Shown: positions 1 to 5,831 of the stretch, piece by piece
How the letters are laid out: the number at the start of each line of letters is the position of its first letter
Position numbering within the stretch: the first letter of the stretch is position 1
Origin: Candidatus Borrarchaeota archaeon
Lineage (GTDB): Archaea > Asgardarchaeota > Sifarchaeia > Borrarchaeales > Borrarchaeaceae
Direction of reading: 5' to 3'
Assembly: GCA_016840645.1 (NCBI GenBank)
Contig: JAEORY010000276.1
Coordinates: forward strand, 1 to 5,831
DNA: 5,831 nucleotides
Notes under the pieces: generated by a model
What the model was told of the DNA's origin: nothing
The model's database searches: none
What the model saw: the letters and a program-made list of their open reading frames with translations, nothing else
Translations under genes and position numbers: made by a program

Positions 1-1021
1 GACCTTGCCTAATTGTAACATCATTACCTGCATTCGCATAAGGCTTTGGCTTACATTCTGGCTCTGGTTTCGGTTTAGGTTCTGGTTTTGGTTTGGGCTT
101 AGGTTCTGGAGCTGGTTCTGGAGCTGGTTCTGGAGCTGGGGTTGGTGTCGGTGCTGGTGAATTATATACGACATAATTAGCTGCGATGCCTATCTTATTA
201 CAGTTATATCGTATTCGTATATATCCATTCTCACCCCAAGATGTTCCCCAACTGTTTTTCATTATAAAATACTGACCATCATCATTCCAACCAACTAGAG
301 TAACCGCGTGGTTAGGACCAGTTCCATCACAGCTATTAAAAATCCCAGTGCGGTAGGCCATCATAATATCCGTAGCTCCGACTGCAACACTTATGGGACC
401 GTAAGTATAGATCGCATTCTTAAGAGAATCCAAAGAAGGCATCGACGTTTCGCTGCTTGCTGGAAGGAAAGCCCACGAAGCGATATGATAAGGATGAGAT
501 AAATTAGATTTACAGGCGACTTCTCGTCCAACATAAGGAAACTCAGATTCAGGCACGGCACCGTAAGGCAAAGCACGATGGTAGTCGTGAGCAAAATAAC
601 CACCGTCACAGCTCCAGCCTTCCCTTGGACCTGCACATGAGAGAAGATATTGTTCCGACAATCGTGTCTGTGTATTATGACGTATCGCCATTATATCTTG
701 AAGGACAGCTACCGTACTGAAGGCCCAGCAAGAGCCGCAATTTCCTTGGTCTTTTGTTGGCGTTAGTTGATATTGATCTCTCCAATCAAAATTACGAGGG
801 AGTGCTGCTTGTGCTTTAACGTCTTTAAAAACTACGTTCTTCGACCAACCTTTTTTAAGCTTAAGACCTGTCTTGTACTTAACAGGTGTTTTTGTTGTCT
901 CAAACGTTTGCGCTTCAACTATATTATCATCCACTATCGCATCGAAAGCTTGAGTTTTAATCACTTCACCGTTAGCTAGAGTAGCTAAACAAAAAAGAAC
1001 ACTTAAAAAAATTCCTTTCAT
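1..1021 (-). CDS. Secreted papain-family (C1A) cysteine protease with Pro-rich linker and start of a PKD-like domain (3' end outside window)
   Basis: This frame is open from an ATG at 1021 to the window edge (340 codons), so the C-terminus is missing. Residues 1-18 form a short hydrophobic signal peptide (MKGIFLSVLF..., cleavage probably after ANG). A propeptide of about 55 residues follows, without an obvious ERFNIN pattern. The mature C1A domain begins near LPRNFDWRD (residues 74-82). The active site is complete: Gln92 of the oxyanion hole and Cys98 in DQGNCGSCWAF, His238 in PNHAV, and Asn256 in KNSWGTSWG. The family motif CDGG (138-141) is also present. Residues about 289-327 are a Pro/Glu/Lys/Ala linker, after which YANAGNDVTIRQG resembles the first strand of PKD-like domains. 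The predicted role is an exported endopeptidase with a C-terminal binding or adhesion module. A GAGGAGG Shine-Dalgarno overlaps the stop codon of the upstream glycoside hydrolase gene, which implies co-transcription and coupling. The protease assignment is firm; the PKD call rests on about 13 residues. Confidence 0.93.
   Translation of the reverse strand, partial: MKGIFLSVLFCLATLANGEVIKTQAFDAIVDDNIVEAQTFETTKTPVKYKTGLKLKKGWSKNVVFKDVKAQAALPRNFDWRDQYQLTPTKDQGNCGSCWAFSTVAVLQDIMAIRHNTQTRLSEQYLLSCAGPREGWSCDGGYFAHDYHRALPYGAVPESEFPYVGREVACKSNLSHPYHIASWAFLPASSETSMPSLDSLKNAIYTYGPISVAVGATDIMMAYRTGIFNSCDGTGPNHAVTLVGWNDDGQYFIMKNSWGTSWGENGYIRIRYNCNKIGIAANYVVYNSPAPTPTPAPEPAPEPAPEPKPKPKPEPKPKPEPECKPKPYANAGNDVTIRQG
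43..157 (-). repeat. Low-complexity tandem repeat encoding the Pro-rich linker of the protease
   Basis: On the plus strand the 12-base unit GGTTCTGGAGCT occurs three times perfectly in a row (102-113, 114-125, 126-137). Degenerate GGTTT/GGTTCTGG copies flank it. On the minus strand it encodes PAPE units that grade into a KPKPEP pattern, an extended spacer between the catalytic domain and the C-terminal module. Such in-frame repeats can change length by slippage. Confidence 0.8.
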
Positions 1022-1033
1022 TTCTTTTCCTCC

Positions 1034-2074
1034 TCAATTGCTCATTAAATAATCTTCATTTACGTCTTGCCCATACGTTTGAATTACATCGATAACATCA
1101 TAAGATTCAGGATAATAAACCGAAAACCCATCATAGTCTGGATATAAAGATCCATCATCTTGTGTTCCAGACAGCAACCAAAAGGCAACTCCATCTATTT
1201 TTTCATCTCGAAATATCTGATACCATTCTTGGTAAACTCTCCGTCTTTTCTGCTTGTCACGTAATCCAAACTCCCCAAGAAAAAGTGGTTTCATCATATG
1301 TTGAGCAATTTTAACGTGGTCATAAATATAACTCTTAGCTCTATCTTCATCGAATCCCCAACCGTCTGGATAAAGATGGAAAGAGATAAAATCAATTGCC
1401 TCTGATTTATGAAGTTCATAGACATCACCTGAAATAGCACCTTCGGAACCTGTTGTGACCAAATGGTTAGGATCTAGCTCTTTTATATATCTTGCCATTT
1501 CATCCACCCAATCGTAAAGAGAAGGAAGATCATGGCTTTTAGGTTCATTCATTAGTTCCCAAGCAAGAATTGTCCCTTCATTTTTGTAGGGAACATTAGT
1601 GAGAGTGTTCACGCGAGTAAGCAAATGCTTTACATAAGCTTTAAATGTGTTTTTAACACGTTCGTCTCGATAAAAATCATCATGTTCTGATAGATTAAAC
1701 CACCGTAAATACTGAGGTATCCCACCGAAATCTTTCCAGTTATTAGACAGTGTGAGGATAAGTCGGATGTTATTTTGTTTAGCTTTTGCAATAATATAAT
1801 CTAATTTTTTAAATGTGGGTTCATGATAAACATAAGGTTCAGGTTGGAAACAATAGCCATCGTGAAAACTATTCTCACAAAAAGCCCACGTTCGAACTAC
1901 CGAAATATTTAATAACTTAGCGTCATCAAATATCTCATCAATCATTTTTTGAGATTTATAAAAAAGATAATATTGATTAGTACCTGAGAATTTTGGTAGC
2001 TTGTCAAATAACGAAAAGGAACAGCAAGAAAGGACAAATGCAAATAACAAGGATAGTATCCAGCGTATAAGCAT
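1034..2074 (-). CDS. Lipoprotein-type glycoside hydrolase family 5, mannan endo-1,4-beta-mannosidase-like
   Basis: A 346-aa protein resembling GH5 beta-mannanases (clan A TIM barrel), which cut internal beta-1,4-mannosidic bonds. The N-terminus is a hydrophobic signal ending in VLSC at residues 14-17, an acceptable lipobox, so Cys17 would be lipidated and the enzyme held on a membrane. Conserved GH5 elements appear in order: VVRTWAF (59-65, with the substrate-site Arg61); AWELMNEP (171-178) with acid/base Glu177; SFHLYPDGWG (231-240) with His233 and Tyr235; LFLGEFG (264-270) with nucleophile Glu268; and Trp299 in VAFWLLSG. The length fits a single catalytic domain without a carbohydrate-binding module. 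The motif wording resembles the GH5_7 mannanase type, but substrate is inferred; a glucanase or glucosidase of GH5 remains possible. The start is supported by AGGAG upstream of ATG. It lies 39 bases after the membrane-protein gene and 12 bases before the protease gene. All catalytic residues are present, so it should be active. Confidence 0.92.
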   Translation of the reverse strand: MLIRWILSLLFAFVLSCCSFSLFDKLPKFSGTNQYYLFYKSQKMIDEIFDDAKLLNISVVRTWAFCENSFHDGYCFQPEPYVYHEPTFKKLDYIIAKAKQNNIRLILTLSNNWKDFGGIPQYLRWFNLSEHDDFYRDERVKNTFKAYVKHLLTRVNTLTNVPYKNEGTILAWELMNEPKSHDLPSLYDWVDEMARYIKELDPNHLVTTGSEGAISGDVYELHKSEAIDFISFHLYPDGWGFDEDRAKSYIYDHVKIAQHMMKPLFLGEFGLRDKQKRRRVYQEWYQIFRDEKIDGVAFWLLSGTQDDGSLYPDYDGFSVYYPESYDVIDVIQTYGQDVNEDYLMSN

Positions 2075-2113
2075 ACCTGTTTTCTCCTATTCTATTTTCT
2101 AATTAATCTTAGA

Positions 2114-2608
2114 CTACTTCTGAAGATATTCTTTCAGCTTTTCGCTATATTCGAATGCTAGATCCGTATTACCTGCCAGTAATGCTCGCATCATTTTCAA
2201 CTGAAGAATGATTTTTTTATCGTCGCGAGTACAATCTATACAAGCTTCGTTGTCCACACGAATTAAAATATCGATTAGACGGTTTTCAAACACAGCTTGC
2301 ATCCTTTGAGTTAATACTCTCTGTAACTCGTCTTCTGTGTCGGGTAACTCTGACGGCTTCTGAATCTTTAGCTTGGTTGGGAAAGTATCTTTGTCTAACA
2401 AAATAACTTCATTATTACTCAAGGCTTTAACATCATCATCAGGGGGGTTGTTGGGTTTTTTCGGTAAAGGATTTTCACATGAAGAGATATTTGATTTTTT
2501 AATTTCAATAGTAAGAGAATCTGGCAAGAAGTAATCAGAAAAAAGAATAAAAATCAATACAAAAACTATTGTCCACAGTACAGTTAAAATAGTGAAAAAC
2601 CAATTCAT
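2114..2608 (-). CDS. Small single-pass membrane protein of unknown function
   Basis: A 164-aa protein I do not recognise. Residues 3-24 are one strongly hydrophobic segment (WFFTILTVLWTIVFVLIFIL...), a membrane anchor rather than a cleaved signal. A flexible Pro/Asn/Asp-rich stretch follows (about 46-60, PKKPNNPPDDD). Then comes a charged, mostly helical C-terminal region (about 88-164) with a pair of cysteines in ACIDC (122-126). The last 40 residues (LLAGNTDLAFEYSEKLKEYL) look like one helix-turn-helix pair of the TPR/SEL kind, but a single pair is not enough for a domain call. AGGA at 2618-2615, inside the last codons of the DHH gene, lies 6 bases from the ATG. The gene starts 3 bases after that gene's stop, so translational coupling is likely. 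Being encoded between a phosphoesterase and exported hydrolases, it could be an envelope-anchored accessory protein, but that is context only. Confidence 0.8.
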   Translation of the reverse strand: MNWFFTILTVLWTIVFVLIFILFSDYFLPDSLTIEIKKSNISSCENPLPKKPNNPPDDDVKALSNNEVILLDKDTFPTKLKIQKPSELPDTEDELQRVLTQRMQAVFENRLIDILIRVDNEACIDCTRDDKKIILQLKMMRALLAGNTDLAFEYSEKLKEYLQK

Positions 2609-2611
2609 ACA

Positions 2612-3493
2612 TTATCCTAGTGAAGCTTTATGTACTCTCACATGAAACCCAGCAGCATTCTTATGACCACCGCCACCGAATTTCTTTGCAATCTCGCTTA
2701 CATCAAAATCACCCCGACTACGAAGATCGTATCTTCTGGATACTTGGTCATCTACAGAATCGGGACCAAAAGCATTGATACGCTCATCTCGATACACAAC
2801 GGCAAACTTACAATCTTTATATTCCGAATCATTTTCAATCATATCTAATAAATAATGACACACTTCGCTAGACTTATACGAAGTGTTTACAGCTAAAACC
2901 TTATCCTCGCCTATCATCATAGTGACAGCATTCCGACAAATATTTTTAATACTTCTATTAGCTGCACGTAAAATAGCTTCGCCTTCTCTCATTAGAAGTG
3001 CTGGTAATGTTGAAACAAACTGGGACCACAATTCGAAATTAAATGAATGGCTACACAGCATTTCGTGAATTTCTTTTGTCCCTGCAAGTTCAAACTTCCA
3101 TAAGTCTCGGTCTGCAATGTGTAAAAGAAGCGTCGGTATTGGTTGGTTAGGGAAAAAATATTCATGAGTTAAAATACAGCCAGCTTTTGTAATATCAAAA
3201 ACAAGTTCCAAATTCGGTACTGAATCCAACATTAGATCCTTCAAATCATCTATAGCACTTTTGTGATGGTCGATAACTACAACTTTTTCCATCCGTTCTG
3301 ACATAATTTTGATGGTATCTTTATTGTAACTAAAATCTACTATATATACAATAGAACCATCTTCCATCTCTGGAACTGGTTGTTTGTAATCCACAGCGAT
3401 GTAATTTGCGTTGTCGCCTAATTTTCTCCACGCAGCATAAGCAGATCCTTGACCATCTTTATCGGAATGATATAACACATATGTTGAACTCAA
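2612..3493 (-). CDS. DHH/DHHA1 family phosphoesterase
   Basis: A 293-aa cytoplasmic protein of the DHH superfamily, metal-dependent phosphoesterases that include oligoribonucleases (NrnA-type) and cyclic-dinucleotide hydrolases. Counting from the TTG at 3493, the metal-binding motifs are in order: YHSDKDG (8-14, with His9, Asp11, Asp13), YIVDFS with Asp53, VVVIDHHKS with the name-giving DHH at 75-77, and ADRD (127-130). A C-terminal DHHA1 substrate-binding domain ends in the Gly-rich GGGGHKNAAGF (273-283). The frame extends upstream to an ATG at 3565, but I prefer TTG 3493. AAGGAAGGG (3509-3501) sits 7 bases before it, the extra 24 residues do not resemble the family, and the longer form would run into the divergent promoter region. 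It is the first gene of the minus-strand operon. Substrate cannot be read from sequence; recycling of short RNA or DNA oligonucleotides, or degrading a signalling dinucleotide, are both possible. Confidence 0.93.
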   Translation of the reverse strand: MSSTYVLYHSDKDGQGSAYAAWRKLGDNANYIAVDYKQPVPEMEDGSIVYIVDFSYNKDTIKIMSERMEKVVVIDHHKSAIDDLKDLMLDSVPNLELVFDITKAGCILTHEYFFPNQPIPTLLLHIADRDLWKFELAGTKEIHEMLCSHSFNFELWSQFVSTLPALLMREGEAILRAANRSIKNICRNAVTMMIGEDKVLAVNTSYKSSEVCHYLLDMIENDSEYKDCKFAVVYRDERINAFGPDSVDDQVSRRYDLRSRGDFDVSEIAKKFGGGGHKNAAGFHVRVHKASLG

Positions 3494-3601
3494 GAATGAT
3501 CCCTTCCTTAAATAAATTTCTTGCAAAAGACTAAGAATAATATACACTACGCATCTTGTATACATAAATTTAGATTTAGACTTACATACTGGAGATTGAA
3601 A
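3494..3601. promoter_or_regulatory. Divergent intergenic region between the DHH gene and the 249-aa gene
   Basis: This 108-base AT-rich stretch separates two genes transcribed away from each other, so it must hold the promoter of the left operon and of the plus-strand gene and RNA run. Candidate -10-like elements are TATACA (3541-3546) on the plus strand and TATATT or TATTAT read on the minus strand near 3535-3545. No convincing -35 partner was found for either, so a phage-specific promoter type is possible. The two Shine-Dalgarno sequences are clear: AAGGAAGGG for the minus gene and GGAG at 3591-3594 for the plus gene. The 9-mer TAGACTTAC near 3578 recurs in the downstream RNA region near 4532. 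Confidence 0.45.
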
Positions 3602-4351
3602 ATGGGAAAATTACATGCACTACTAGCTGTTGAACCTGACAAAAAAGGTGCTGCAGAAAAAATCTTAAACGAAACTATTAATACTTTTTCTAAAAAACAA
3701 GATCACTTCACAGGGCAACTTCGTACTTATGCACCTGTTAATGATGGAGATACTGAAATTTTTGATGACGAAAAGAAAACGATGGTCACAACGGTTGCTG
3801 ACAAATTGACATACACAGAGCAAGCGCTGGTGGAGTTAATCGATGTCCTCTATCAAAAAGAAGAGACAAACACTAACGCTCGTGCAGATCTTGTCTTACC
3901 AAATGGAACCGTTATCGCTACTAGTGTCCCAGCGACAGTTTTACTGAATTTGGAAAACAGGTTTAAAGCTATTAGAATGATGTATCAAGCTATTCCTACT
4001 CTAGCCCCTGAAGAAGAGTGGGTTGTAGATAGTACATTAGACAATACTTATAAATCAAAACCGAAGGTTACATATAAAACCAAAAAAGTGACAACTCCAC
4101 TTGTTCTTTATCCACATACCGACCGTCATCCAGCGCAAGTTAAAGAGGTGACAGAGGATGTTCGACAAGGAACTTGGACGACAACTAAATGGTCTGGGAT
4201 GTTAAGTCCTAGCCAAAAATCAGAGCTATTAGGGCGCGTTGATACCTTGATTCAAGCGATCAAATGCGCTAGAGTACAGGCGAACGATGAGGAAGCAGCA
4301 ACTAATAAGATTGGTAATCGATTATTCGATTACATAAATACTGGAAACTAG
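3602..4351 (+). CDS. Conserved uncharacterised protein, MGKLH...SGM...LLGRVD family
   Basis: A 249-aa soluble protein. I recognise it as belonging to a conserved but uncharacterised family in bacteria and phages; I believe Pfam calls it DUF7873, but the number is from memory. Characteristic stretches are the N-terminal MGKLHALLAVEPD (1-13), VTTVADKLTY (62-71), a central VPATVLLNLENRFKAIRMMY (109-128) with IPTLAPEEEW (131-140), HPAQV (176-180), and the C-terminal TKWSGMLSPSQKSELLGRVD (195-214) followed by a basic helix and an Ala/Asn-rich end. There is no signal peptide, membrane segment or known catalytic motif. The start is set at ATG 3602 because GGAG lies 7 bases upstream and MGKLH is the family N-terminus; an in-frame ATG at 3521 would add 27 unrelated residues. 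The stop lies 11 bases before tRNA-Asp, and no terminator is seen between them, so it is probably co-transcribed with the RNA run. That placement suggests an RNA-related role, for example binding or processing of the tRNA-like RNA, which is inference only. Confidence 0.9.
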   Translation: MGKLHALLAVEPDKKGAAEKILNETINTFSKKQDHFTGQLRTYAPVNDGDTEIFDDEKKTMVTTVADKLTYTEQALVELIDVLYQKEETNTNARADLVLPNGTVIATSVPATVLLNLENRFKAIRMMYQAIPTLAPEEEWVVDSTLDNTYKSKPKVTYKTKKVTTPLVLYPHTDRHPAQVKEVTEDVRQGTWTTTKWSGMLSPSQKSELLGRVDTLIQAIKCARVQANDEEAATNKIGNRLFDYINTGN

Positions 4352-4362
4352 AAATAAAAAGA

Positions 4363-4438
4363 GGGGTATGGGACTGCATGGTGTGGTCACTGGCCTGTCA
4401 CGCCAGAAATCAGGCGGGTTCAATTCCCGCATACCTCG
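4363..4438 (+). tRNA. tRNA-Asp (anticodon GTC)
   Basis: All arms fold. The acceptor pairs 4363-4369 with 4431-4437 (7 bp, one G-T at position 2:71). The D stem is GACT/GGTC (4372-4375 with 4385-4388) with GG in the loop. The anticodon stem CTGGC/GCCAG (4390-4394 with 4402-4406) closes the loop CTGTCAC with GTC at 4397-4399. The T arm is GCGGG-TTCAATT-CCCGC (4414-4430). Discriminator base G4438 is the known Asp identity base. No CCA is encoded, so host CCA addition is needed. Oddities are G instead of T at position 8 and a 7-nt variable loop. Confidence 0.92.
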
Positions 4439-4460
4439 TTTAACCAAATCTAAAACCGTA

Positions 4461-4510
4461 GACTTAGACTTAGACTCGAACCTTCACTTTGTGTGAAGGG
4501 ACTTAGACTT
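4461..4510 (+). repeat. Short direct repeats GACTTAGACT around a hairpin
   Basis: GACTTAGACT occurs at 4461-4470, overlapping at 4467-4476, and again at 4500-4509. The copies flank the 7-bp hairpin CCTTCAC/GTGAAGG (4481-4499, loop TTTGT). All copies have the same orientation, so they cannot pair with each other; they could be repeated binding sites or unpaired linkers. A related TAGACTTAC lies near 4532 and upstream of the 249-aa gene near 3578. Confidence 0.6.
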
Positions 4511-4569
4511 TGATTTAGCGTTTTGCGGTTGTAGACTTACGCTTGTAAGGACGTTAGAAAGTATATCGA

Positions 4570-4664
4570 GACTCACAATAGTTCTGGCCGTGAGTTCGAA
4601 TCTCACCTCGTCGGCTTGACGACGAGTAGCTCAGTGGTAGAGCAAGAATTTTTAGATTAGAGTT
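4570..4664 (+). ncRNA. Circularly permuted tRNA-like domain (permuted tRNA or Y-RNA-type tRNA mimic)
   Basis: The 3' half of a tRNA precedes its own 5' half. In order, there is an anticodon-arm 3' strand GTTCT (4581-4585), a GGCC variable loop, and a perfect T arm GTGAG-TTCGAAT-CTCAC (4590-4606). Then come acceptor 3' strand CTCGTCG (4607-4613), a six-base connector GCTTGA, acceptor 5' strand CGACGAG (4620-4626), T8 and A9 (4627-4628), and a perfect D arm GCTC-AGTGGTA-GAGC (4629-4643). The last element is A26 and anticodon-arm 5' strand AGAAT (4645-4649). The acceptor is 7 of 7 Watson-Crick pairs and both elbow loops match consensus (GG in the D loop, TTCGAAT). The anticodon helix continues outward through an internal loop into GACTC/GAGTT (4570-4574 with 4660-4664), so the anticodon end is a stem instead of a normal loop. 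By topology this is the arrangement of YrlA-type bacterial Y RNAs, whose tRNA mimic has a closed acceptor hairpin. A spliced permuted tRNA gene is the alternative. The fold is near certain; the role is inferred. Confidence 0.85.
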
Positions 4665-4702
4665 TTGGTTATACTGAATACGCAGTCCATAAAAACAGGC
4701 AC

Positions 4703-4772
4703 AAGAGTATAGCTCTAGAGAGAGCGCCAGCTTGATAAGCTGGAGGACTTGGTGCAAATCCAAGTACTCTAC
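4703..4772 (+). tRNA. tRNA-Ile (anticodon GAT), with non-canonical elbow
   Basis: The acceptor pairs 4704-4709 with 4765-4770 (6 bp), with an A-A mismatch at 1:72. The D stem is GCTC/GAGC (4712-4715 with 4722-4725). The anticodon stem CCAGC/GCTGG (4727-4731 with 4739-4743) holds loop TTGATAA with GAT at 4734-4736. The T stem is CTTGG/CCAAG (4748-4752 with 4760-4764). The D loop TAGAGA lacks the GG pair and the T loop is TGCAAAT instead of TTC-type, so the usual D-loop/T-loop contact is lost on both sides. Position 73 would be C, unlike the usual A of tRNA-Ile. No CCA is encoded. It could be a weak, decaying or specialised tRNA. Confidence 0.7.
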
Positions 4773-4780
4773 TTCATAAT

Positions 4781-4815
4781 AGGAGGTAGGATAGGCGATG
4801 TTCCTACCTCCACCA
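4781..4815 (+). promoter_or_regulatory. Ribosome-binding site locked in a 10-bp hairpin
   Basis: GGAGGTAGGA (4782-4791) pairs with TCCTACCTCC (4802-4811), 10 perfect pairs with a 10-nt loop. The 5' arm contains the strong Shine-Dalgarno AGGAGGT and a second AGGA; the loop carries ATG 4798-4800, and the 3' arm is the first codons of the small ORF. Folded, it would hide the ribosome site, so opening of the stem may control translation. The stem is followed by ACCA (4812-4815), giving it also the look of an acceptor-type minihelix. No T-run follows, so it is not a terminator. Confidence 0.6.
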
Positions 4816-4914
4816 TCTAATCCTTACGTCAGTAAGTTCTATATATGGGGTGATGGCTCTACCGAGCCTGATCTCCACCATTTGTATCTACACAAAATTA
4901 TATATAATTTTTAA
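4798..4914 (+). CDS. Possible 38-aa small protein, unknown function
   Basis: The ATG at 4798 opens 38 codons (starting MFLPPPSNPYV and containing FYIWGDGSTEPD and LHHLYLHKI) and ends at TAA 4912-4914. AGGA at 4788-4791 is 6 bases upstream, and a full AGGAGGT lies slightly further off, so the start is better supplied than most short ORFs. I know no family for it and see no signal or membrane segment. The same bases form hairpins at 4782-4811, 4823-4836 and 4847-4876, so the stretch may instead be a structured RNA that happens to be open. It follows tRNA-Ile on the same strand and probably the same transcript. Confidence 0.4.
   Translation: MFLPPPSNPYVSKFYIWGDGSTEPDLHHLYLHKIIYNF
4823..4836 (+). 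other. Small hairpin CTTAC-GTCA-GTAAG
   Basis: A 5-bp stem with a tetraloop. The same stem with a different tetraloop (GCTT) occurs at 4536-4549 in the upstream structured RNA. This repeats the helix, but not the loop, on both sides of the tRNA-like domain. It could be a shared protein site or chance. Confidence 0.4.
4847..4880 (+). other. Hairpin with tandem G-A internal loop and ACCA tail
   Basis: GGGG (4847-4850) pairs with CTCC (4873-4876), including a G-T at the third pair. A symmetric internal loop TGAT/TGAT (4851-4854 with 4869-4872) can form tandem G-A pairs flanked by T-T. GGCTC/GAGCC (4855-4859 with 4864-4868) closes a TACC loop. ACCA follows at 4877-4880. G1-C72, G3-T70 and A73 with CCA match the alanine acceptor identity of tRNA-Ala and tmRNA. 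It overlaps the 38-aa ORF, so coding constraint and structure compete as explanations. Confidence 0.4.
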
Positions 4915-4920
4915 TATAAT

Positions 4921-4950
4921 TTGACTTTCATACACATCTTCTTCTATGAA
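4921..4950 (+). promoter_or_regulatory. Candidate sigma70-type promoter
   Basis: TTGACT (4921-4926, five of six bases of the -35 consensus), an 18-base spacer, and TATGAA (4945-4950) as a weaker -10, with a very AT-rich upstream stretch (4894-4920). It would drive a short transcript of about 140 nt ending at the terminator at 5065-5098. The weak -10 keeps confidence low. Confidence 0.35.
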
Positions 4951-4969
4951 GGAATTTTGGTAACTGCAT

Positions 4970-5002
4970 AAGGACACTCATATGAGTACAGGATGTCTTT
5001 TT
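4970..5002 (+). terminator. Possible weak hairpin/terminator
   Basis: AAGGACA (4970-4976) can pair with TGTCTTT (4994-5000, one G-T). An inner CTC-ATAT-GAG (4977-4986) and an unpaired TACAGGA lie between. The 3' arm runs into TTTTT (4998-5002). The bulge makes it weak; it may instead be an upstream stem of the same transcript as the strong terminator. Confidence 0.25.
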
Positions 5003-5020
5003 GGTAGTAAGATTTTCTAG
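4982..5020 (+). CDS. Possible 12-codon leader peptide
   Basis: ATG 4982 gives MSTGCLFGSKIF and then TAG at 5018-5020. AAGGA at 4970-4974 is 7 bases upstream, good spacing. It lies between the candidate promoter at 4921-4950 and the strong terminator, the layout of a leader peptide or a small RNA with a short ORF. There is no downstream gene on the plus strand for it to attenuate before the terminator, so it may be meaningless. Confidence 0.15.
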   Translation: MSTGCLFGSKIF

Positions 5021-5064
5021 TAAATCTGTTGAACTCAGGTAGAGATTAAATGCTCGTCATCGGG

Positions 5065-5098
5065 AGCACCACTGAACATACTCAGTGGTGCTTTTTTT
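5065..5098 (+). terminator. Strong intrinsic terminator
   Basis: AGCACCACTGA (5065-5075) pairs perfectly with TCAGTGGTGCT (5082-5092), an 11-bp stem with loop ACATAC, followed by a run of seven T (5092-5098). It ends plus-strand transcription of the RNA run and overlaps the stop codon of the convergent HNH gene. There is no T-run on the other strand, so it works mainly in one direction. Confidence 0.93.
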
Positions 5099-5471
5099 AA
5101 TCTCGATCGAACTTTGCATTAAGAACTATTTCGATTGCTTCTTGTTGAGTAATTTCTCCTTTTTTTAATTGTTGATACGTTTGATACTCAAGGTGAGTGA
5201 CATTGAGAGAATAATGTTGACACCAAAGGTTGTCGTCATCATTAGATCCACCAATCGACAATGGAATAATATGATCCACTGTGTAATTCGTGCGATCCTC
5301 AACCCCATCCCGTAAACAAATGTCTACCTTTCTTTCTGTGGTAACATTGCGTCTACAGTGCGGGATCATCTCTTCGTAACGAAATTCATCAAAATCAGGA
5401 TCTGTTTCAGTACATAAGTGTCCAGTCGTGGGCGGTACTACTAGAGAATAGAGAAGGATCAAAAATCCCAT
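5097..5471 (-). CDS. Exported small HNH endonuclease
   Basis: A 124-aa protein. Residues 1-18 (MGFLILLYSLVVPPTTGH) look like a short signal sequence, so the nuclease would leave the cytoplasm. The HNH core is YTVDHIIPLSIGG (63-75), with the Asp66-His67 pair, and NLW (81-83) with Asn81; His86 may complete the metal site. The upstream part, CTETDPDFDEFRYEEMIPHCRR (20-41) with Cys20 and Cys39, plus Cys52 and Cys84, is the pattern of a compact HNH family with an N-terminal DPDF...YCRR-type segment that I recall from secreted bacterial proteins. Cys pairs could form disulfides outside the cell. The start is backed by GGAGG seven bases upstream. Its likely reaction is metal-dependent DNA cleavage. 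Roles could be degrading host or competitor DNA in the periplasm or outside; both are inference. It is convergent with the RNA run and shares the terminator end. Confidence 0.88.
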   Translation of the reverse strand: MGFLILLYSLVVPPTTGHLCTETDPDFDEFRYEEMIPHCRRNVTTERKVDICLRDGVEDRTNYTVDHIIPLSIGGSNDDDNLWCQHYSLNVTHLEYQTYQQLKKGEITQQEAIEIVLNAKFDRD

Positions 5472-5543
5472 CTTGTTTCCTCCAATATAATCCCGTATAA
5501 GAAAAACTGAATGTATTATTTAATCTTGAAGTACGGAGTGTAC
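5472..5543. promoter_or_regulatory. Divergent intergenic region between the HNH gene and the right-edge gene
   Basis: 72 AT-rich bases between two genes transcribed apart, which must hold both promoters. TGTATTAT (5512-5519) is a possible extended -10 for the plus gene, and TTATAC read on the minus strand near 5495-5500 for HNH. No clear -35 was found. Shine-Dalgarno sites are GGAGG for HNH and GGAG at 5535-5538 for the plus gene. Confidence 0.4.
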
Positions 5544-5831
5544 ATGTTTACCACAGTAGAATATGAGCCAAGAAAAACCGCTGAAATCCAAGAATTACTA
5601 GACAGACTAGATGAACGTTACAAAACATTAAAAACCGAAATCTACCAATATACAGAAGAGCCTAAAAATAGTTCGCCACAGGCATTTTGTCTTGCTCTCG
5701 ATAAAGAACGTTTAATAAATCTAGTAAAATGCGAACGACGAGTTTACAGTTTACTTCCACATATTGCATATACACATTTCCCTCTATCCGAAGATGAAGA
5801 TGAATATGAAGGTGAAGATGACGAGAATGAA
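5544..5831 (+). CDS. Unknown protein with helical N-terminus and acidic tail (3' end outside window)
   Basis: The ATG at 5544, with GGAG 5 bases upstream, opens 96 codons that continue past the window edge. I do not recognise the family. Residues 8-35 (EPRKTAEIQELLDRLDERYKTL...) form an amphipathic, charged helix with coiled-coil character. A second helical part lies at about 48-75 (FCLALDKERLINLVKCERRVYSLL). From residue 82 the chain is extremely acidic (SEDEDEYEGEDDENE), as in phage structural, assembly or DNA-mimic proteins. There is no signal or membrane segment. Being divergent from the HNH gene, it may start a separate plus-strand operon. Confidence 0.85.
   Translation, partial: MFTTVEYEPRKTAEIQELLDRLDERYKTLKTEIYQYTEEPKNSSPQAFCLALDKERLINLVKCERRVYSLLPHIAYTHFPLSEDEDEYEGEDDENE

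Follow-up and report, generated by a model that had tools for sequence, protein, structure and literature searches.

What is an RNA gene doing between two tRNA genes when it seems to contain a tRNA with its halves in reverse order? The case arises in a stretch of 5,831 nucleotides (nt) deposited under Candidatus Borrarchaeota archaeon (assembly GCA_016840645.1, contig JAEORY010000276.1, positions 1 to 5,831; 'the window' below). There, a T arm and the 3′ strand of an acceptor stem precede, rather than follow, the 5′ acceptor strand and a D arm. It is near certain that the element encodes a structured noncoding RNA, with a predicted length of ~140 nt. The sequences of its relatives show a conserved RNA, tRNA-like in its head and mounted on a rod, that is almost certainly tied genetically to the protein family DUF7873 (Pfam PF25283). 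In the window the DUF7873 gene is on the same strand as the element, its stop codon being ~200 nt from the outer stem of the RNA with a tRNA-Asp gene in between. A first-pass annotation of the window had read the element as a Y-RNA-like mimic. That reading stands, though the annotation had missed the constant neighbor, DUF7873, and had made the RNA too short. The element is YrlA-like in architecture, yet it belongs to a different, DUF7873-linked family.

Occurrence downstream of DUF7873 in viruses and cultured phages

The viral set comprised the best 80 of 332 confirmed DUF7873 loci in IMG/VR together with one further locus (L001), Rhizobium phage RHph_Y65 and the window, 83 in all. With a strict structural scanner applied to the 700 nt downstream of DUF7873 genes, the motif was present behind 52 of the 72 distinct eligible genes, against 0/72 for upstream stretches, 0/72 for reverse strands and 0/1440 for dinucleotide shuffles. 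Relaxed criteria add L151, L173, L184, L200 and L206, and also one implausible match (L202). A covariance model, R1, built from 32 viral elements, finds a match downstream of the gene in 82 of the 83 loci (79 of the 80 IMG/VR contigs plus L001, RHph_Y65 and the window). Thirty-two of these loci are the training rows themselves and 6 more are 94-100% identical to one of them downstream of the gene; outside both groups the match is present in 44 of 45. The sole miss, L183, has just 122 nt of downstream sequence. The gap between the end of the matched coding stretch and the R1 match is 82-584 nt (median 149 for the 82 viral loci). The exact 40-base core of the window element had no match in the viral contigs.

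Cultured phages give the same picture. Ten of the 73 phage records with DUF7873 were examined, with hosts in Rhizobium (3), Gordonia (2), Arthrobacter, Klebsiella, Rhodococcus, Pseudanabaena and Vibrio. None is a training row, though one of them, RHph_TM30, is closely related to the training row RHph_Y65. All ten have an R1 match behind DUF7873 (39.2 to 80.1 bits), and several have two. The best match falls in an unannotated stretch in 8 of the 10, and overlaps a small hypothetical coding sequence in the other cases, Ziko and D505.

Given that the window element lies between two tRNA genes, it might be thought a chance or decayed product of such neighbors. Pairs of tRNA genes do imitate the pattern, and they explain 9 of 23 viral pattern matches. 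However, none of the 1440 shuffles yielded the motif, none of the 152 best downstream matches (82 viral and 70 from the bacterial set described below) overlaps an ARAGORN tRNA prediction by more than 20 nt, and both the rod and the helix that joins it to the head covary. On these comparative data (tRNA overlap, shuffles, covariation) a tRNA-pair artefact was rejected for the DUF7873-linked elements, and its probability is very slight indeed.

The constancy of position also brings to mind a structured element 3′ of the coding sequence in the DUF7873 mRNA, concerned with stability, autoregulation or 3′-end formation by tRNA-processing enzymes, and not a free RNA. In all 152 loci with a match, gene and element share a strand, with the element starting 21-649 nt past the matched coding stretch, and tRNA-like folds can act as processing signals, which lends that possibility some general plausibility. 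Against it are the tRNA gene that intervenes between DUF7873 and the element in the window, and the presence of two or more elements in 25 of 54 bacterial loci, which is beyond the need of a 3′ signal. An mRNA element is accordingly thought improbable, and a separate RNA linked to DUF7873 is preferred.

Four viral contigs (L047, L075, L026 and L109) have strong elements of 52.6-67.6 bits, with no predicted tRNAs at the match; DUF7873 and Ro-like genes are both absent from the sequence examined around them.

Fold of the window element and covariation

Direct reading of the sequence confirms the order reported by the first-pass annotation, i.e. T arm, acceptor 3′ strand, GCTTGA connector, acceptor 5′ strand and D arm (4590-4643), with a perfect 7-bp acceptor. 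Its expectation that standard tRNA finders would miss the element was borne out too, with ARAGORN calling the tRNAs on both sides and making no call at the element itself. In the unconstrained minimum free energy (MFE) fold the head is followed outward by a 6-bp helix in the place of the anticodon stem (P4), a 5 × 9 internal loop, a rod of 15 bp with one bulge (P2/P3), a GAA/GAA loop and an outer stem (P1). The anticodon helix and the further 5-bp helix outside it, as first described, are thus both real, the latter (GACTC/GAGTT) being the inner end of the longer rod. The range 4570..4664 originally assigned was too short, as the rod and outer stem extend the RNA to 4549-4688. The parts are listed in Table 1.

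The MFE of 4538-4698 is -44.9 kcal/mol, compared with a mean of -35.3 for shuffled sequences (z -2.32, with 6 of 200 shuffles equally stable). The centroid structure of the same segment retains the rod and acceptor and loses the T and D arms. R1 gives the window element 92.2 bits at 4556-4678, a score to be taken with the window's being a training row.

Table 1. Parts of the predicted RNA and the genes flanking it in the window
Feature	Positions	Strand	Basis
Entire predicted RNA (rod and permuted tRNA-like head)	4549..4688	+	Unconstrained MFE fold; ends inferred from fold
Outer stem P1, 5′ strand	4549..4556	+	Pairs with 4679-4688; unconstrained fold
Rod P2/P3, 5′ strand, AGTATATCGAGACTC	4560..4574	+	Pairs with 4660-4675, bulged U4669; fold
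P4 ('anticodon' helix), 5′ strand, AGTTCT	4580..4585	+	Fold, covariation, flank-pairing control
T arm, GTGAG-TTCGAAT-CTCAC	4590..4606	+	Sequence and fold
Acceptor stem, 3′ strand, CTCGTCG	4607..4613	+	Sequence and fold
Connector, GCTTGA, without CCA	4614..4619	+	Sequence
Acceptor stem, 5′ strand, CGACGAG	4620..4626	+	Sequence and fold; 7 Watson-Crick pairs
D arm, GCTC-AGTGGTA-GAGC	4629..4643	+	Sequence and fold
P4, 3′ strand, AGAATT	4645..4650	+	Fold
Asymmetric internal loop between P4 and rod, 3′ strand	4651..4659	+	Fold; sequence partly conserved in alignment A3
Rod P3/P2, 3′ strand	4660..4675	+	Fold
Outer stem P1, 3′ strand	4679..4688	+	Fold
DUF7873 protein gene, 249 aa	3602..4351	+	PF25283 267.5 bits (cut-off 27), residues 1-246
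tRNA-Asp(gtc)	4363..4438	+	ARAGORN; Rfam 37.7 bits
tRNA-Ile(gat)	4704..4772	+	ARAGORN; Rfam 50.3 bits

Co-variation among homologues, on which the first-pass annotation had staked its reading, is present in the T, acceptor and D arms and in P4. These are not equivalent. Pairing in the T, acceptor and D arms was among the criteria by which elements were selected, and their covariation is for that reason partly a product of selection. P4 was not a criterion, and across homologues 77.3% of its cells are paired, with changes on both sides at all 4 of 4 pairs. At least 4 P4 pairs can form in 34 of 49 viral elements, whereas a control with mismatched flanks of different loci has a mean of 2.1 and a maximum of 6. 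For P3, at least 8 pairs can form in 27 of the 49, the same type of control having a mean of 4.1 and a maximum of 7 (P3 is not part of R1, the MAFFT alignment smearing it). Application of RNAalifold to 18 actinobacterial loci, whose two RNAs are unlike each other, yielded 80 pairs of which 37 show changes on both sides; these include the rod of the second RNA, again a pairing for which there was no selection.

Linkage in bacteria

The best 80 of 529 confirmed bacterial DUF7873 loci, many from metagenome-assembled genomes and some from complete chromosomes, provide a further test. The viral-trained R1 has a match downstream in 70 of the 80 (E 0.01 or better), 21-649 nt behind the matched coding stretch. 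The ten loci without one are mostly from Cytophagales, and stay empty with the filters off. Some caution is called for with the scores themselves. Ordinary tRNA pairs score up to 53.1 bits with R1, a level not exceeded by 49 of the 70 best bacterial matches, so that the bacterial argument is carried by position, recurrence and covariation. The scanner identifies 80 elements in 54 bacterial loci.

In the phylum of Nonomuraea aridisoli, DUF7873 occurs in 6 genomes among a spread of 198, one of the 6 being the center. In the other 5, whose identity to the loci already analyzed does not exceed 88%, an element is downstream in every case (5/5), and in 4 there are two matches.

Relation to YrlA and Ro60

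The permuted tRNA-like domain is a feature of YrlA, and is present in the element by sequence and fold. YrlA (RF02553) is also the sole Rfam family to match the element over its length (4568-4669, 40.4 bits, E 1.7e-6), with the gathering score of 69 not being reached; relatives in five cultured phages score 31.3-37.6 bits. Resemblance to YrlA and its partner Ro60/Rsr (TROVE, PF05731) extends to the mounting of the head on a stem formed from both ends of the RNA, to the occurrence of one or more copies beside the gene for a partner protein, and to presence in bacteria and phages alike. The differences are several. The neighbor here is DUF7873, and few DUF7873 phages have TROVE; the rod helices and internal loops are unlike the Rfam consensus, whose 7-bp rod helix is deleted in the alignment of the window; and CCA is present in the connector of 38 of 49 viral-set elements (see below), in addition to the score being below the cut-off.

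To our knowledge, Ro60 is the one protein partner described for Y RNAs. As the neighbor to which the first-pass annotation had pointed, it is not supported: there is no TROVE among the seven open reading frames (ORFs) of the window that were scanned, though the genome may have one elsewhere, and TROVE is rare in the relatives, being found in 2 of the 45 viral records searched (from the 80 loci; many records are fragments) and in 1 of the 10 genomes of cultured phages with both DUF7873 and the element. The records in which it was not found include those of Gordonia phage Ziko, Arthrobacter phage Mimi and Rhizobium phage RHph_TM16. In bacteria the two systems overlap more, with TROVE in 18 of 30 genomes that have the DUF7873 unit and not found in 12. 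In these 30 genomes, where 110 candidates were scored per genome and positions were matched by hand, 22 of the 36 listed R1 matches of at least 45 bits are at DUF7873 and 11 are within 2 kb of TROVE. Of the three high-scoring matches away from both, two are on neighboring tRNA pairs and one is unassigned. Sixteen of the 18 TROVE-bearing genomes have a listed R1 match no more than 2 kb from that gene. This clustering, at DUF7873 on the one hand and at TROVE on the other, implies that each protein has permuted tRNA-like RNAs of its own.

The same data bear on whether the element is an ordinary phage YrlA that serves the Ro60 of phage or host, with DUF7873 a passenger of tRNA clusters. In addition to the Rfam match, Ro60-linked phage elements are also recognized by R1 (BRock 62.1, Alone3 50.9 and RHph_Y65 56.9 bits). 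Two Streptomyces phages, Alone3 and BRock, have the element ahead of a gene with a TROVE match, annotated as Ro-like or RNA-binding. Ro60 and DUF7873 are moreover neighbors in some genomes, e.g. RHph_Y65, where TROVE is ~5.4 kb from DUF7873 in a tRNA cluster, and a 12-kb bacterial locus (L309, genome G057) where a Ro-like gene is adjacent to DUF7873 in a cluster that also contains the DUF7873 RNAs and one more element. The scarcity of TROVE in the viral relatives, the separate elements of Ro60 where both systems are present, the missed gathering score and the lack of a common family among the neighbors of bacterial DUF7873 loci all tell against a passenger role (in 30 such loci, 101 neighboring proteins matched 103 Pfam families, each confined to at most 2 of the proteins, albeit with a crude ORF caller). 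A YrlA at the service of Ro60 is unlikely. The L309 cluster, for its part, suggests a functional tie between DUF7873 and Ro systems.

Several similar permuted elements are in tandem in L311 (bacterial genome G050, C33:222855-223203), where neither DUF7873 nor a Ro-like gene was found in 12 kb around them. In L306 (5044-5343, bacterial genome G059) there are two lone elements; the 9.4 kb examined there showed no DUF7873, no Ro-like gene and a single tRNA, ~3 kb off, and perhaps yet another partner is involved.

CCA in the connector, and other permuted RNAs

Among the 49 non-redundant viral-set elements, 38 have a connector that opens with any base followed by CCA, i.e. at the exact position of a tRNA discriminator and tail, compared with 0 or 1 of 49 for CCA at each of five other offsets. 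The counterpart in the bacterial set is 11 of 80, and the discriminator base varies among elements. A comparison of CCA in the element with CCA in the tRNA genes of the same phage, made on the 34 of 58 loci that had a tRNA, divided these 14/11/3/6 (Fisher p 0.44); for cultured phages with two elements the last copy was taken. First copies in the Arthrobacter and Rhodococcus phages have CCA, the second copies lack it, and the nearby tRNA genes with CCA number 0 of 8 and 0 of 10, respectively. The sharp confinement of CCA to the tRNA position is the reason for considering that the phage connector may be cut to give a two-piece RNA. It is conceivable, though no better than a tentative proposal, that DUF7873 and its RNAs form a second, Ro60-independent family of tRNA-mimic ribonucleoproteins in phages and several bacterial phyla, in which tRNA end-processing enzymes cut the phage connector. 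Two pieces would result, as in two-piece tmRNA, the first of them with CCA at its end; EF-Tu or tRNA-binding enzymes could then hold the head, or it might be aminoacylated. That phage members encode CCA raises the question of whether such mimics undergo tRNA-like processing, or even charging.

The position of CCA in the phage relatives, together with a gene order in which the 3′ half is encoded before the 5′ half (T arm, acceptor, D arm), is also what a true circularly permuted tRNA gene, with halves rejoined after processing, would have. Algal and archaeal permuted tRNAs use a bulge-helix-bulge (BHB) junction (PMC3978253), and share with the element the order of the halves and a connector that joins the acceptor strands. 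However, the junction side of the element is a long rod with a 5 × 9 nt internal loop, there is no 7-nt anticodon loop, the rod replacing the anticodon arm, and the discriminator base is not conserved. A permuted tRNA gene was rejected on the absence of a BHB junction and anticodon loop, as judged by comparing the fold with the definition in that source and not by a BHB search program, and has very little probability. The preference of the first-pass annotation for a Y-RNA-like mimic over a permuted tRNA is correspondingly upheld by the rod beyond the anticodon arm, the missing 7-nt loop and BHB, and the YrlA match.

Two-piece transfer-messenger RNA (tmRNA) also has its T arm, acceptor and connector ahead of the 5′ acceptor strand, and in this the permuted form (RF04321, RF01849) is similar to the element, which differs in its full D stem and in that no tag reading frame was recognized. 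tmRNA was rejected for the window, where there is just an 18-nt T-arm match of 12.9 bits; in three cultured phages tmRNA models reach 24-25 bits at the element, the family cut-off being 84. The two are juxtaposed in Rhodobacter phage RcXuper (L002, 3216-3749), in which a permuted tmRNA match of 108 bits is directly before a permuted tRNA-like element; the record has no TROVE match.

Possible function

A partnership of DUF7873 protein with the RNA is likely, from their genetic linkage. Taken as a whole, it is on balance probable that the element specifies a Y-RNA-like RNA which has its own partner in DUF7873 and works like a Ro60-YrlA particle. The permuted head repeats the T-arm, acceptor and D-arm part of a tRNA, with the connector joining the acceptor strands and a rod with internal loops replacing the anticodon arm. 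DUF7873 may bind the rod, probably in the internal-loop region, leaving the RNA to display its tRNA-shaped head, which might recruit or occupy tRNA-recognizing enzymes, as proposed for Ro60-YrlA. DUF7873 would thereby be tethered to, or block, enzymes that recognize the tRNA elbow and acceptor. In phages, where the unit is often near tRNA genes, it could be a tRNA decoy or handle during infection. A decoy or tether role is the best available guess, and a somewhat speculative one.

There are precedents on the Ro60 side. Some jumbo phages have TROVE with a tRNA-like partner (PMC7824862), and a report on Listeria phage CKA15 describes abundant RNAs near a Ro-like gene that were proposed to be Y RNAs (PMC12282133). 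YrlA has been put forward as a possible competitive inhibitor of a tRNA-cutting nuclease (PMC7790460). Searches of Creative Commons-licensed papers in PubMed Central brought up none that deals with DUF7873 or with an RNA of this kind next to its gene. While the architecture is known from YrlA, the partner, the rod and the encoded CCA are new as far as searches of Rfam 15, Pfam and the literature show. If the partnership is real, a second, unrelated protein family has its own permuted tRNA-like RNAs (one or two per locus), and rod-mounted tRNA mimicry would be a general design in bacteria and phages. It would also give a lead to function for a Pfam family that has none. The unit is small and, being present in sequenced cultured phages and in culturable bacteria such as Nostoc and Nonomuraea strains, is directly testable.

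DUF7873 and the surroundings of the element

Pfam gives no function for DUF7873. Its structure was predicted twice (predicted local distance difference test scores of 88.3 and 93.7), and Foldseek returned nothing at E 1e-3 or better (PDB for both models, BFVD for the first); lower-ranking rows, among them 3kdq_A and Pur-alpha, were too weak to use. Searches of NCBIfam and PADLOC produced nothing useful. With no confident relative for the model, the protein itself gives no independent hint.

By profile scans of its ORFs the window is phage-like, with a DHH phosphoesterase (phrog_4771), HNH, a papain-type peptidase and GH5, and a protein identical to its DUF7873 product belongs to a cluster that occurs on contigs as long as 262,013 bp. 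The spacer before the element (4440-4545) has recurring words that resemble GACTTAGACTT, together with a CCTTCAC/GTGAAGG hairpin, for which Rfam has no match at a meaningful E-value. On the minus strand the papain-type peptidase, which has a proline-rich repetitive tail, and the GH5-type glycosidase (2-1021 and 1034-2074) have starts that by eye resemble signal peptides, and are unusual cargo for a phage.
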